10,482 nt of DNA from Deltaproteobacteria bacterium RIFOXYA12_FULL_61_11 (GTDB lineage Bacteria > Bdellovibrionota_F > JAHFAK01 > YA12-FULL-61-11): assembly GCA_001799195.1 (NCBI GenBank), contig MGSU01000095.1, forward strand, positions 13,390 through 23,871, given 5' to 3'. The translations under genes were made by a program, and so were the position numbers. Below are positions 4,603-10,482 of this stretch, piece after piece; positions within the stretch are counted from its first letter, which is position 1, and each line of letters opens with the position of its first letter. The notes under the pieces were generated by a model, which searched no databases, was not told the origin of the DNA, and saw nothing but the letters and a program-made list of their open reading frames with translations.

Positions 4603-6294
4603 TCAGCCCTCCTCGCCCTCTCGTTCGATGCCATACTTGCGCATTTTCTCGTGCAGGGTCGAGACCGCAATGCCGAGAGAACGCGCGGCGTGGACCTTGT
4701 TCCAGCGGTGGTACTGGAGGGAGGTCAGGATGGTTTCCCGTTCGGCGTCGCGCAGGGTGCGCGGTTTGGTCTCTTCCTTCACCGCCTTGGGTTCGAAGAA
4801 GGTTTTCTCCCCCATAAGGCCGAGTTTGAAGACCACATGGCTGGGGTCTATCATTTCCCCTTGGCTGAGCACCAGGGCGCGATTGATGACGTTCTTGAGT
4901 TCGCGCACGTTGCCTGGCCAATGATAATCGAGGATTTTGTCCAGAGCAGTGGGGCTGATCTTCTCGGAGAGGAGGTCGCCGGTCTTGCGATAGCGGTCGG
5001 TGTCGAGTTCCGGGAGGCCGATTTTCAGGAAGTGTTCCAGGAGAGCCGGTATGTCCTGTTTGCGTTCGGCCAGGGGTGGCAAGGTTATCGGGATGCAGAA
5101 GAGCCGGTAGAAAAGGTCTTCGCGGAAGGTGCCGCGCTGAACTTCTTGTTGCAGGTTCTTGTTGGTCGCGGTGATGACGCGCACGTCCACGGAAATGGTT
5201 TCGTTAGAACCCAAGCGTTTGACCTCCCTGGTCTCCAGGACGCGCAGCAGCTTGGGTTGGAGATCGAGGGGCAACTCGCCGATTTCGTCCAAGAAGACGG
5301 TGCCGTGGTCGGCGTACTCGAAAACCCCCTTGCGGAATTGCGAGGCGCTGGTGAAGGCGCCCTTCTCGTGTCCGAACAACTCGCCCTCGATGAGGTCCTT
5401 GGCGATGGCCCCGCAATTCAGAGGCAGGAAGACCTGGTCTCGGCGATTGCTGAGACGATGTAAGGCTTTTGCGATCAATTCCTTACCAGTTCCGGATTCC
5501 CCGGAGATGAGCACGGTGGCGTCGGTAGCGGCCACGTTCTGGACCAGGTCGAAGACCTCGCGCATATGCGCGGTGGTGCCGACCATGCCCTCGAAATAGT
5601 TCAAGGCCACGGGTTTGATCGCAATGGAGGAGGTGCGGGTGGTGAAGGTCAGCATGGTTTTACCGATGCGGAAGACATCCCCATCGTTCAGGGTCACTTC
5701 GCCGATCCGAGTAGGTCCGAGGTAGGTGCCATTCTTGCTGCCCCAGTCCTTCAGAAGATACCGGCCGGAACGGACGTCGATGGAACAGTGGGTGGTCGAG
5801 ACGTACTCGTCGTCGAGGATGATCTGATTGCTCGGATTCTTGCCGATTAGGCATGGGAAACTCTTGATTTCTATGTCTTTTGCTTCTTTCCCCGTGCCGA
5901 GACGCAGGGCGCTCTTCTCGACTTGCAAGAGTTTCTTGCCGTGGTCGAAGCCCAGGATCTTGGTGGTGTTGTAATTGGCGAGTCGGGTGCGCTCCTCGGG
6001 TTGGACCTCGACCGAGAGTTGGAACTCGACGTTGAAGGAACCGACCGTGAGTTGGTCTCCTTCTTTCAAGGTGTGGGTGTGGACGCGGCGGTCGTTGACG
6101 AAGGTCCCGTTGGTGCTGCGATCAATCAGAACGTACTCTTCGCCTCGGCGACGGATGGAGACGTGGACCCGGGAGATGTTCAGGTCGGCCAGGCTGATGT
6201 CGTTCTCGCTGCTGCGGCCGATGGTGGTCTCTTCGTTGCTGAGGAAGAAACGCATGATGAATTCGGCGTTCTTGTAGAAGCTCAGGCTGGCCAT
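4603..6294 (-). CDS. Double-FHA sigma-54 enhancer-binding protein
   Basis: This 563-residue activator opens sigma-54 promoters using ATP. FHA domain 1 (about 20-95) has GR at 26-27, SRVH at 41-44 and NGT at 62-64, the expected phosphothreonine-reading residues. FHA domain 2 (about 145-220) has GK instead of GR and STTH instead of SRxH, then NGT at 188-190. The AAA+ core (about 233-470) has Walker A GESGTGKE (265-272), GAFTSA (312-317, usually GAFTGA), Walker B VFLDEI (333-338), REDLFYRL (391-398) and WPGNVREL (459-466). A Fis-type helix-turn-helix ends the protein (about 515-556). I chose the ATG at 6294 because GGGGAG lies about six bases upstream and the FHA homology begins there; an in-frame ATG at 6357 adds only unrelated residues. 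FHA domains imply input from a Ser/Thr kinase, not an aspartate phosphorelay. It lies 81 bases downstream of the peptidase gene on the same strand. Confidence 0.95.
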   Translation of the reverse strand: MASLSFYKNAEFIMRFFLSNEETTIGRSSENDISLADLNISRVHVSIRRRGEEYVLIDRSTNGTFVNDRRVHTHTLKEGDQLTVGSFNVEFQLSVEVQPEERTRLANYNTTKILGFDHGKKLLQVEKSALRLGTGKEAKDIEIKSFPCLIGKNPSNQIILDDEYVSTTHCSIDVRSGRYLLKDWGSKNGTYLGPTRIGEVTLNDGDVFRIGKTMLTFTTRTSSIAIKPVALNYFEGMVGTTAHMREVFDLVQNVAATDATVLISGESGTGKELIAKALHRLSNRRDQVFLPLNCGAIAKDLIEGELFGHEKGAFTSASQFRKGVFEYADHGTVFLDEIGELPLDLQPKLLRVLETREVKRLGSNETISVDVRVITATNKNLQQEVQRGTFREDLFYRLFCIPITLPPLAERKQDIPALLEHFLKIGLPELDTDRYRKTGDLLSEKISPTALDKILDYHWPGNVRELKNVINRALVLSQGEMIDPSHVVFKLGLMGEKTFFEPKAVKEETKPRTLRDAERETILTSLQYHRWNKVHAARSLGIAVSTLHEKMRKYGIEREGEEG

Positions 6295-6375
6295 GGTCCG
6301 CTCCCCTGCTGCGCCGTGGGTGGCGCGAGTATGGCCCAGTGGGTCCGGGGAAGTCAATGGTATCGGAGTTCGACT

Positions 6376-7716
6376 TCAAGGACAATTGGTGCTGGTGACC
6401 CACTGGTCGCGGTCCGGGGCACCGTCGCCGCTTACGCCGTTGAATTTCAAGGCAACCGAGGCGCACTGGGAGGAACCGCAGTGTTTCTGCAAGGCGAAGT
6501 GGAGATGGTCGCCGGTGGTGTAGCCGCTGGCGCCAACCTTGGCGATGACCTGGCCTCGGACGACCTTGTCGTTCTTCTTCACCGTCGCGGTGCTGAGGTG
6601 CTTGTACACGCTCTCGAGGCTCTTGCCGTGATCCACCACCACGTAATTGGCCTTGGCGACGCAGGAGGAATCGCCTTCGTTGTAGCAAGGGTCGCCGGGT
6701 TTGGTCGCGGTGGAGACCATGATCACGGTGCCGGCAGCAATGGCCTTGACGTCGTCACCGGTCTTTAGGTCGAAATCGAAGGCGTATTTGCTGTCGTTCT
6801 TGTGGAACCCGTCGTTGTTGCCCTGGGAGATGCGTATGCGTTTGTCGCAGGCGAAGGGCAGGAAATAACCTTCCTCGGCCGGCGGATCTTCTGCCGCTGG
6901 GGGTGGCTCCACGGTCGCCGGCGGTGGCTCTTCGACCACGGGAGGGTCTTCCACCACGGGAGGGTCGTCGCTGGCCTCTTGTTCCGGATTGGCCGGAGGC
7001 TGGTCCTGGGTGGGCAGTTCGATAGTCCAGTCCGGGGTGCAGTCCTCGAAGACCGAGACGTGGATCGCATCCCGGTGAGCTTCGGCCTCGGCGCTCTCGA
7101 GGTCGGCGGAATAGAGGTTGTAGGTCTCGGCCGGCCAGAGTTCAGGAGGCATGGTCGCCAGGCTGGCGATGCACAAGCGGTGATGGTTGTGGAAGAGGAA
7201 GGCGAAGAGCTGCAGGTCTTGCGCGAGGTCCACGGCCCGGCCGAGTTTATGGGCACTTTGCTCCGGAACTCCCTCGCCCGCGAAGGTCTTGGGCTGTACA
7301 TCATAGCCTGCCTGGAGCAACGCGACCAGTACGAGGAGCAGGGTGGGGGAGGGCTGGAGTGCAGGGTTCTCGCCGGCGGCGAGGGCCGCGAGGAGAACCC
7401 CTTCGGGTGAGGTAGGGTCGAGGACCACCCGCCCCAGGCCGTTGACGCGCTCAGCTCCGATCCGGGATTGGAGATAGGTGGCGAACACCGTGGAGTCGAG
7501 GGGGAGGACGGGAGTCACGATGGGGTCTTCCGAGGTGGTCGCACCTCCTTCCGCGGGTGGGGTGGGGCAGGATCTCAGGTTGGGGTTGCAGGGCAATTGC
7601 AGGGATGCCTCGGACCCATCGTCGACCTCGACGCTCTCGCAGCACAGTCCGAGTACGGCGAGCAACAGGATCAGAGCAGGTGCGAGCAGGTGGGGCAAAA
7701 GTGGGCGCCGGGGCAC
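6376..7716 (-). CDS. Secreted peptidase with M15-like and M23 (LytM) domains
   Basis: This 446-residue protein is predicted to be exported and to act on peptidoglycan. The signal region (about 6-24) is followed by Cys25-Cys26 in a poor lipobox context. Residues 80-225 resemble zinc D,D-carboxypeptidases of the M15 type: SAHKLGRAVD (154-163) fits SxHxxGxAxD, and His219 in IHVSV fits the third ligand. A Pro/Glu linker (about 236-283) leads to the M23 domain (about 290-415), with zinc ligands His305 and Asp314, KHL at 372-374 (His373), and HLHF at 404-407. The M23 site looks intact, so endopeptidase activity is plausible. The M15-like part could be active, or could only bind substrate. The start is GTG with CGGAG about nine bases upstream; there is no good ATG. 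It is upstream of the FHA activator gene, possibly in the same transcript. Confidence 0.88.
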   Translation of the reverse strand: MPRRPLLPHLLAPALILLLAVLGLCCESVEVDDGSEASLQLPCNPNLRSCPTPPAEGGATTSEDPIVTPVLPLDSTVFATYLQSRIGAERVNGLGRVVLDPTSPEGVLLAALAAGENPALQPSPTLLLVLVALLQAGYDVQPKTFAGEGVPEQSAHKLGRAVDLAQDLQLFAFLFHNHHRLCIASLATMPPELWPAETYNLYSADLESAEAEAHRDAIHVSVFEDCTPDWTIELPTQDQPPANPEQEASDDPPVVEDPPVVEEPPPATVEPPPAAEDPPAEEGYFLPFACDKRIRISQGNNDGFHKNDSKYAFDFDLKTGDDVKAIAAGTVIMVSTATKPGDPCYNEGDSSCVAKANYVVVDHGKSLESVYKHLSTATVKKNDKVVRGQVIAKVGASGYTTGDHLHFALQKHCGSSQCASVALKFNGVSGDGAPDRDQWVTSTNCP

Positions 7717-7783
7717 GGCAGGTTCTCCGGGGTCACTCTATCCGGCAGCATAGCACAACTGCACCCTACCGGGGAGCTTTATC

Positions 7784-7793
7784 CTGTTGCGCT
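7784..7793 (+). repeat. Left target-site-type direct repeat
   Basis: CTGTTGCGCT directly abuts the left terminal inverted repeat of the element at 7794-7926. It matches 9 of 10 bases of the segment directly abutting the right end, which is expected if a transposase duplicated a roughly 10-bp target. Confidence 0.65.
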
Positions 7794-7926
7794 CAGACTT
7801 GCTTCAAAGTCCCACTCAATCCCCGTATTGTGGCAGAGAAAAGCCTCCATGCTTTTCTCTGCGCTCGTCGTTTGAATACGTTACTTGATAGCCGGGCCTC
7901 CTGCCCTCGACTTTGAAGCAAGTCTG
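7794..7926. mobile_element. MITE-like element, 133 bp, 18-bp perfect terminal inverted repeats
   Basis: CAGACTTGCTTCAAAGTC (7794-7811) is exactly reverse-complementary to 7909-7926, and the match stops at both ends. The element is flanked immediately by CTGTTGCGCT and CTCTTGCGCT (9 of 10 identical), consistent with a target duplication. No coding capacity is present. Inside is a second perfect inverted repeat (12-bp arms, 7833-7862), so a transcript would fold into a long nested stem. It sits in the intergenic gap between the divergent peptidase and radical SAM genes. The alternative is a chromosomal structured RNA or bidirectional terminator, but the abutting direct repeats favour transposition. 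The parent transposon is not in the window. Confidence 0.72.
7833..7862. repeat. 12-bp perfect hairpin inside the MITE-like element
   Basis: GCAGAGAAAAGC (7833-7844), a six-base loop CTCCAT, and GCTTTTCTCTGC (7851-7862) form an uninterrupted stem. A further CGTATT/AATACG pair (7824-7829 with 7875-7880) lies between this hairpin and the terminal repeats. There is no U-tract after the stem, so it is not a typical intrinsic terminator. Confidence 0.7.
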
Positions 7927-7936
7927 CTCTTGCGCT
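7927..7936 (+). repeat. Right target-site-type direct repeat
   Basis: CTCTTGCGCT directly abuts the right terminal repeat and differs from the left copy at one base. Its last bases also supply the weak -35 (TTGCGC) of the candidate promoter for the radical SAM gene. Confidence 0.65.
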
Positions 7937-8980: not shown

Positions 8981-9846
8981 CCTTGCACTTCCGAGAGTCG
9001 ATCGAGGAGCTCGTCCGGGCACGGACCTCGTGGCGCGCCTATGAGCCGTGGATCTTGACGAGCGGGGACCTTGCAGAACTGGAGAAATCTCTTGCTTCCC
9101 TTCCCCCGCCTCCCTTCGGGTCGGCTCTCCGGCACGTCGTAGTGCCGGCGCGGTCGGATGACGGGACTACCCTGCGCGGCCTGCACACCTATGGTTTCAT
9201 CAGCAACGCCGCCGGCTTCGTGGTCGGTGTTCTCGGAGAAGACGCTTACGGCCTGGAGGACTTCGGCTACGTCACCGAGTGCTTCGTCCTCCATTGTACT
9301 GACCGTGGGCTCGGTACCTGTTGGCTTGGCGGCACCTTCGACCGCAGTTCGTTCTCCCGGCGCGCAGACGTGCACGACCACGAGCAGATACCCGCGGTCG
9401 TGGCCTTCGGGAAACCCACGGCTCTGCGCGGGATGCGGGACCGGCTGATCCGACTCGGGGCCGGCTCGCACAAGCGCAAGCCGCTGGAGGAGTTGGTCTG
9501 CTGCTCGGGAAAGGGAGGAACCGGCGCCCTCTCAACGCTTTCGCCCGAACTCCAGACTGCGCTCGAGGCCGGTCGGCTTGCTCCCTCGGCCTCGAACAAG
9601 CAGCCCTGGCGCTTCCTGGTCGACGGTCCCGAGGTTCACCTCTACCTTCATCGCGACGAACGCTACCGCGGCTTGGGTAAAACCTTGGGGTTGGTCGACC
9701 TGCAGCGCCTCGACCTGGGCATCGTCATGGCGCACCTCGACCTAGTCCTGACCGCCCGCGGGCATACCTGCACCTGGGTGGTCGAAGCCGATCCGCCGAG
9801 CTTCCCCGGTGATCTCGCCGAGTACCGATGTACGTTGATCTATTGA
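8977..9846 (+). CDS. Tandem nitroreductase-like flavoprotein
   Basis: This 289-residue protein resembles the TM1586-type putative nitroreductases, in which two half-domains in one chain replace the usual homodimer. The first half has RTSWRAYEPW (about 16-25) and GLGTCWLGGTF (111-121); the second has RLAPSASNKQPWRF (200-213), the classic nitroreductase FMN/partner motif. The segment HKRKPLEEL (165-173) joins them. The family uses FMN with NAD(P)H to reduce or oxidise small molecules, and the substrate is not predictable here. I set the start at the ATG overlapping the radical SAM stop; an upstream open frame from 8860 is only read-through of that gene. The 3' end overlaps the convergent thiol-disulfide gene by seven bases. 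Confidence 0.85.
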   Translation: MTLHFRESIEELVRARTSWRAYEPWILTSGDLAELEKSLASLPPPPFGSALRHVVVPARSDDGTTLRGLHTYGFISNAAGFVVGVLGEDAYGLEDFGYVTECFVLHCTDRGLGTCWLGGTFDRSSFSRRADVHDHEQIPAVVAFGKPTALRGMRDRLIRLGAGSHKRKPLEELVCCSGKGGTGALSTLSPELQTALEAGRLAPSASNKQPWRFLVDGPEVHLYLHRDERYRGLGKTLGLVDLQRLDLGIVMAHLDLVLTARGHTCTWVVEADPPSFPGDLAEYRCTLIY

Positions 9847-10482
9847 CCCGCGGCCGACTGTTCGGTGCAGGAGCCGGAGGCGGCGCCCTTGTGCAGGGCC
9901 TCGTGGAGGCTCGAGGCCGTGAGCAGCTCGGGCAGGACCAGGACCTTGTTGTCTTCGGCACAGGGTGGGATCACCAGGTACAGAGGCACCCCGGAGCGGC
10001 CGAAGCGCTTGAGCCACATAAAGATGGTGTCGTTCTGCTGGGTGAAATCTGCTTTTATTGCCAGATAGTTGTGTTGCGCGAGTATAGCGGCCGTGGCCTC
10101 GGTTTCGAGGACGGTACGCTCGTTGAAACGGCAATTCATGCACCAGGCCGCGGTGAAGTCCAGGAAGATGGGTCGCGGCCCTCTGCGCACCTTGTCCATG
10201 TCCAGGAGTGAGAAATCCAGCCAGGAGATCGTCGAGGCGTCGATCGGTTTTGCCGCGGCGTTCGGTACGGGCAGGTCGTGCAGCAGCCACCAGCCGAAGA
10301 GCACGAGCAGGGCGGTCGAGGGTGCGGCAATGGTGAGCCTGCGCCGCAGACTGCTCGCGTTGTCGGTGAGCGCCCCTTGCAACCAGGCGGCGAGCCCTAT
10401 TCCCAAGGCAAGCCACAACAGCGCTTCGGCCAGGGGGGCGCCATGCGCTTCCAGTACCACGCCGAGCAGCCACAGAGCGGTA
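9840..10482 (-). CDS. DsbD/ScsB-family thiol:disulfide interchange protein, C-terminal part
   Basis: The N-terminus lies beyond the right edge; 213 residues are visible. They begin in a hydrophobic membrane segment (about 2-36 of the visible part), followed by Arg-rich residues, a second hydrophobic segment (about 51-70), and a thioredoxin-fold domain. The redox motif is WCMNC (Cys114/Cys117 visible numbering), with GRSGVP (cis-Pro 166) later. The sequence style (FLDFTAAWC, KADFTQQN, GVPLYLV) fits the ScsB/DsbD branch, which passes electrons from cytoplasmic thioredoxin through the membrane to periplasmic disulfides. The protein ends in an extra tail with Cys205. A GTG at 10460 is not the start, because the frame stays open and hydrophobic to the edge. 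Stop TAG at 9842-9840. Confidence 0.9.
   Translation of the reverse strand, partial: TALWLLGVVLEAHGAPLAEALLWLALGIGLAAWLQGALTDNASSLRRRLTIAAPSTALLVLFGWWLLHDLPVPNAAAKPIDASTISWLDFSLLDMDKVRRGPRPIFLDFTAAWCMNCRFNERTVLETEATAAILAQHNYLAIKADFTQQNDTIFMWLKRFGRSGVPLYLVIPPCAEDNKVLVLPELLTASSLHEALHKGAASGSCTEQSAAGQ

Follow-up and report, generated by a model that had tools for sequence, protein, structure and literature searches.

A probable MITE-like element of low copy number in the gap between an M23-peptidase gene and a radical SAM gene

The intergenic locus and its repeats

The window analysed here is a stretch of 10,482 nucleotides from the assembly of Deltaproteobacteria bacterium RIFOXYA12_FULL_61_11. 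Within it, two ORFs diverge from a common intergenic region, one for an M23 peptidase (minus strand, start 7716) and one for a radical SAM protein (plus strand, start ~7991), with a nitroreductase ORF next after the radical SAM ORF. Between these two recognisable genes lies an element of 133 bp, end to end, bounded by terminal inverted repeats (TIRs) whose arms are 97 bp apart (Table 1). A MITE is expected to be short (<500 bp) and non-coding, to end in TIRs and to be abutted by a target-site duplication. The element is both short and non-coding, its arms pair at every position, and direct repeats of 10 bp, identical at nine of ten positions, immediately adjoin both arms. These repeats, as well as a perfect inner hairpin with 12-bp arms, had been described in a sequence-only reading of this DNA, and all of them were recovered with the same extents. 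Mechanical ORFs cross the element, and neither a consensus promoter nor a U-tract terminator was found in the region around it. The element might influence the expression of the neighbouring genes.

Table 1. Features of the element in the window and copies of its terminus on other contigs of the assembly.
Feature	Position	Strand	Evidence or remark
Left direct repeat CTGTTGCGCT, probable target-site duplication	7784..7793		sequence
Left terminal inverted repeat CAGACTTGCTTCAAAGTC	7794..7811	+	18/18 pairing with right arm
Inner perfect 12-bp hairpin GCAGAGAAAAGC-CTCCAT-GCTTTTCTCTGC	7833..7862		arms 7833-7844 / 7851-7862; folding
Right-end subterminal hairpin (GGGC..GCCC) + TC	7892..7908	+	common to C77 and C289
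Right terminal inverted repeat GACTTTGAAGCAAGTCTG	7909..7926	-	18/18 pairing with left arm
Right direct repeat CTCTTGCGCT, probable target-site duplication	7927..7936		sequence
Terminus copy	C129:8920		exact to consensus
Terminus copy	C77:2640		one mismatch to consensus
Terminus copy	C289:398		one mismatch to consensus
Terminus copy	C217:7267		two mismatches to consensus; terminus alone common with the element

We assessed the statistical weight of this arrangement in several ways. In the ~61 kb of genome checked, no perfect inverted repeat besides this pair has arms of at least 14 bp and a span of at most 200 bp; in the same scan, shuffled sequence gave about one 12-bp inverted repeat per set. 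A match of at least nine in ten at the exact abutting position has a chance of P ~5e-5 at local composition, the effective P being a few times higher because several duplication lengths would have counted. The corresponding RNA folds much more stably than shuffles do, with z scores of -8.0 on the plus strand and -6.8 on the minus strand.

Copies of the terminus elsewhere in the genome

The assembly searched spans 4.64 Mb in 342 contigs and is 87% complete. A search of the genome with the 133 bp and with the 18-bp terminus, proposed earlier as a check on mobility, had a divided outcome: no second complete copy is present in this fragmented, incomplete assembly, while across the whole assembly the 18-base terminus recurs with at most two mismatches at four further intergenic loci, each with differing flanks. 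All other matches to the terminus carry three mismatches, which is the level of the reversed-pattern control. Each of the four loci has a single recognisable terminus only, and the flanks of the copies are unrelated to one another, short coincidences aside. The copies on C77 and C289 have a further 17 bp in common with the right end in the window, including the small hairpin that sits just inside the terminus (stems GGGC/GCCC and GAGC/GCTC). Three occurrences of the 25-base right end CAGACGTGCTTCAAAGTCGAGNGCA were counted, while the control gave none. When the right half of the element was aligned with C77 and C289, the score was reached by none of 200 shuffles; its similarity to C129 is weaker, with a score reached by 2 of 200.

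Several further candidates were rejected. An imperfect partner of the C217 terminus at 7339-7356 would have given a second complete MITE, but this stretch belongs to the end of a different repeat, present in at least eight copies. That repeat (CAGCGATGAAGAGCGTCTATTC..., with its end at 7336-7405 on C217, locus L087) stands at contig ends in several of its copies; it is probably a multi-copy insertion sequence at which the assembly was broken. The same contig holds a CRISPR-like array at ~5190-6940, the repeats of which translate as repeated SIPSTSGNCLG / FHPFYIRELSRT, and the 18-mer lies ~330 bp past this array. On C242, a match of the R1 model lies across long open frames and is apparently coding sequence; the other R1 matches (C235 and others) scored at background. 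As the hairpin in R1 was placed one column off, R1 is mainly a sequence model; the count of paired changes given below used the correct columns.

The ISAs1 transposase and searches outside the genome

One terminus copy adjoins a transposase. On C129, an ISAs1-family transposase of 415 aa starts 165 bp downstream of the 18-mer; it matches profile NF033564 at 6e-29 and is the only ISAs1 transposase in the genome. Five plasmid-borne ISAs1-family elements that we measured have CAGGG ends and exact 10-bp duplications in 5/5, so that the window element, which likewise ends in CAG beside a 10-bp duplication, fits this family. The resemblance does not extend through the TIR: the sampled ends read CAGGG..., whereas the element ends in CAGACKTGCTTCAAAGTC, so that CAG alone is common to both, and the element carries no transposase. 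The C129 insertion sequence also carries, further inward, an inverted repeat of its own with another sequence (9027-9050 / 10336-10359, 18/24), spaced from the gene much as in the ISAs1 elements sampled. Bounded by this inner repeat, it stops 107 bp short of the 18-mer, and no second terminus is reached before the end of the contig. For this reason an ISAs1 helper is not proven, and we did not accept the C129 insertion sequence as the proven parent of the element.

Two short flanking coincidences were seen around these termini. The sequence TTGCTCAC stands to the left of the C129 18-mer (locus L086, 8911-8919) and again at 10360-10367, just outside the right inverted repeat of the ISAs1 element, and TGCTCACC flanks the C129 and C217 (7259-7266) termini in the register of a duplication. 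Both coincidences are post hoc, and they are mutually inconsistent.

The other four DDE_Tnp_1 transposases of the genome were all found without the 18-mer terminus. Two of these four, in insertion sequences on C192 and C53 (L117 and L118), have a different TIR, CCCGAATAATTCACCA, and 4-bp duplications. No insertion sequence with the same pair of ends as the element (CAGACGTGCTTCAAAGTC) was found, and no close transposase relatives turned up in 386 genomes at E 1e-20 or in the genome contig collection. The 20-base right-end pattern gave 0 matches in the 84,980 genomes of the GTDB contig collection, the plasmid collection held no DNA match to the element, and viral contigs yielded 12 single, chance-like 17-mers that had neither hairpin nor partner. 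Two genomes of the phylum were covered; the one besides this is without the radical SAM gene and thus offers no empty site for comparison.

Interpretation of the element

We consider it likely that the element is a MITE, a non-autonomous DNA transposon inserted in the gap that separates the M23-peptidase gene from the radical SAM gene. A small transposon of this ordinary kind is the most likely reading because the sequence of its ends is found again at four further places in the genome. A transposase acting in trans on the 18-bp ends would have moved the gene-less 133-bp sequence, and its insertion would have duplicated a 10-bp target between the two genes. The four other loci would then be decayed or truncated relatives. 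The helper may have been a DDE transposase that makes 10-bp duplications, plausibly of ISAs1 type, and a transcript through the element would be expected to fold into one long stem. The sequence-only reading had also arrived at a MITE; the TIRs, the abutting duplication, the lack of coding content and the dispersed terminus bear this out, while a second complete copy and an insertion sequence with the same ends did not come to light. Its further suggestion that the insertion was fairly recent is weak, as the duplication has one mismatch and a closely similar complete copy is absent.

According to a review, MITEs of prokaryotes measure less than 500 bp, have TIRs of ~4-30 bp, are flanked by direct repeats when young and commonly include truncated copies (PMC10969869). 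The element resembles described families such as Correia/NEMIS, Chunjie and QMITE2 (PMC10969869) in its size, non-coding and intergenic character and TIR length, and likewise in its flanking direct repeats, predicted long-stem transcript and coexisting truncated copies. It differs in number, since those families have tens of copies or more and here one complete copy stands with four single termini, and no sequence match for it exists in the collections scanned. We judge it to be an ordinary but well-formed MITE-like repeat of low copy number, and a new low-copy case of a bacterial MITE. Its interest is that a MITE-like family of low copy number is recorded from a bacterial phylum with few sampled genomes, and that the termini of the family adjoin gene starts and stand near a CRISPR array; otherwise it is ordinary.

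The stable folds on both strands could also belong to a resident structured RNA, an RNase III substrate or a bidirectional terminator that is not mobile, and across the three copies of the right-end hairpin one paired substitution was seen. The count of paired changes, however, was no higher than in shuffles (180/500), the outer stem is not kept in the terminus-only copies elsewhere, and neither an Rfam family at threshold nor a terminator with a U-tract was found for the element region, which makes this reading very unlikely. Less probable still is an invertible segment (inverton) in which the 18-bp arms serve as recombinase sites. The perfect pairing of the arms, their separation of 97 bp and their place between divergent genes would suit such a segment, but no recombinase was found among the window genes tested, the direct repeats begin exactly where the arms end, and single copies that have no partner are present elsewhere. 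Readings as an attC site, a retron or a CsrA sponge were set aside, since the window showed neither a reverse transcriptase nor core sites that would suit them.

The main rival, though an unlikely one, is a promoter-associated motif, because the termini face gene starts and two of them share the -10-like GTGCTATG at equal spacing. On this account GACTTTGAAGCAMGTCTG is an operator upstream of five genes or arrays, with one window copy for each divergent gene, and the direct repeat arose by chance. Each copy stands in intergenic DNA and points towards a gene start ~65-105 bp downstream (a CRISPR array for C217), the 18-mers in the window contain a partial dyad GACTT-N6-AAGTC, and GTGCTATG lies exactly 37 bp beyond the motif at both the left window arm (7750-7757) and C129 (8875-8882). 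Facing both starts is nevertheless automatic with divergent neighbours, and the downstream genes have no common theme. Weaker sites that rise above the control are lacking and the copies are nearly identical, which is not how a regulon looks; in two or three of the copies the likeness extends over at least another 17 bp, including a hairpin; and the abutting 10-bp duplication is left unexplained by an operator. The terminus is conserved while the interior would have decayed, and the spacing of GTGCTATG is identical at two promoters, which together raise the very unlikely combination that MITE-derived 18-mers have been kept as upstream promoter elements at several genes and near the CRISPR array. 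If the terminus were such a co-opted element, it would offer a small example of transposon-derived regulation. Both copies of GTGCTATG stand ~40 bp upstream of long ORFs, and this sequence is possibly a -10-like promoter element of the organism.
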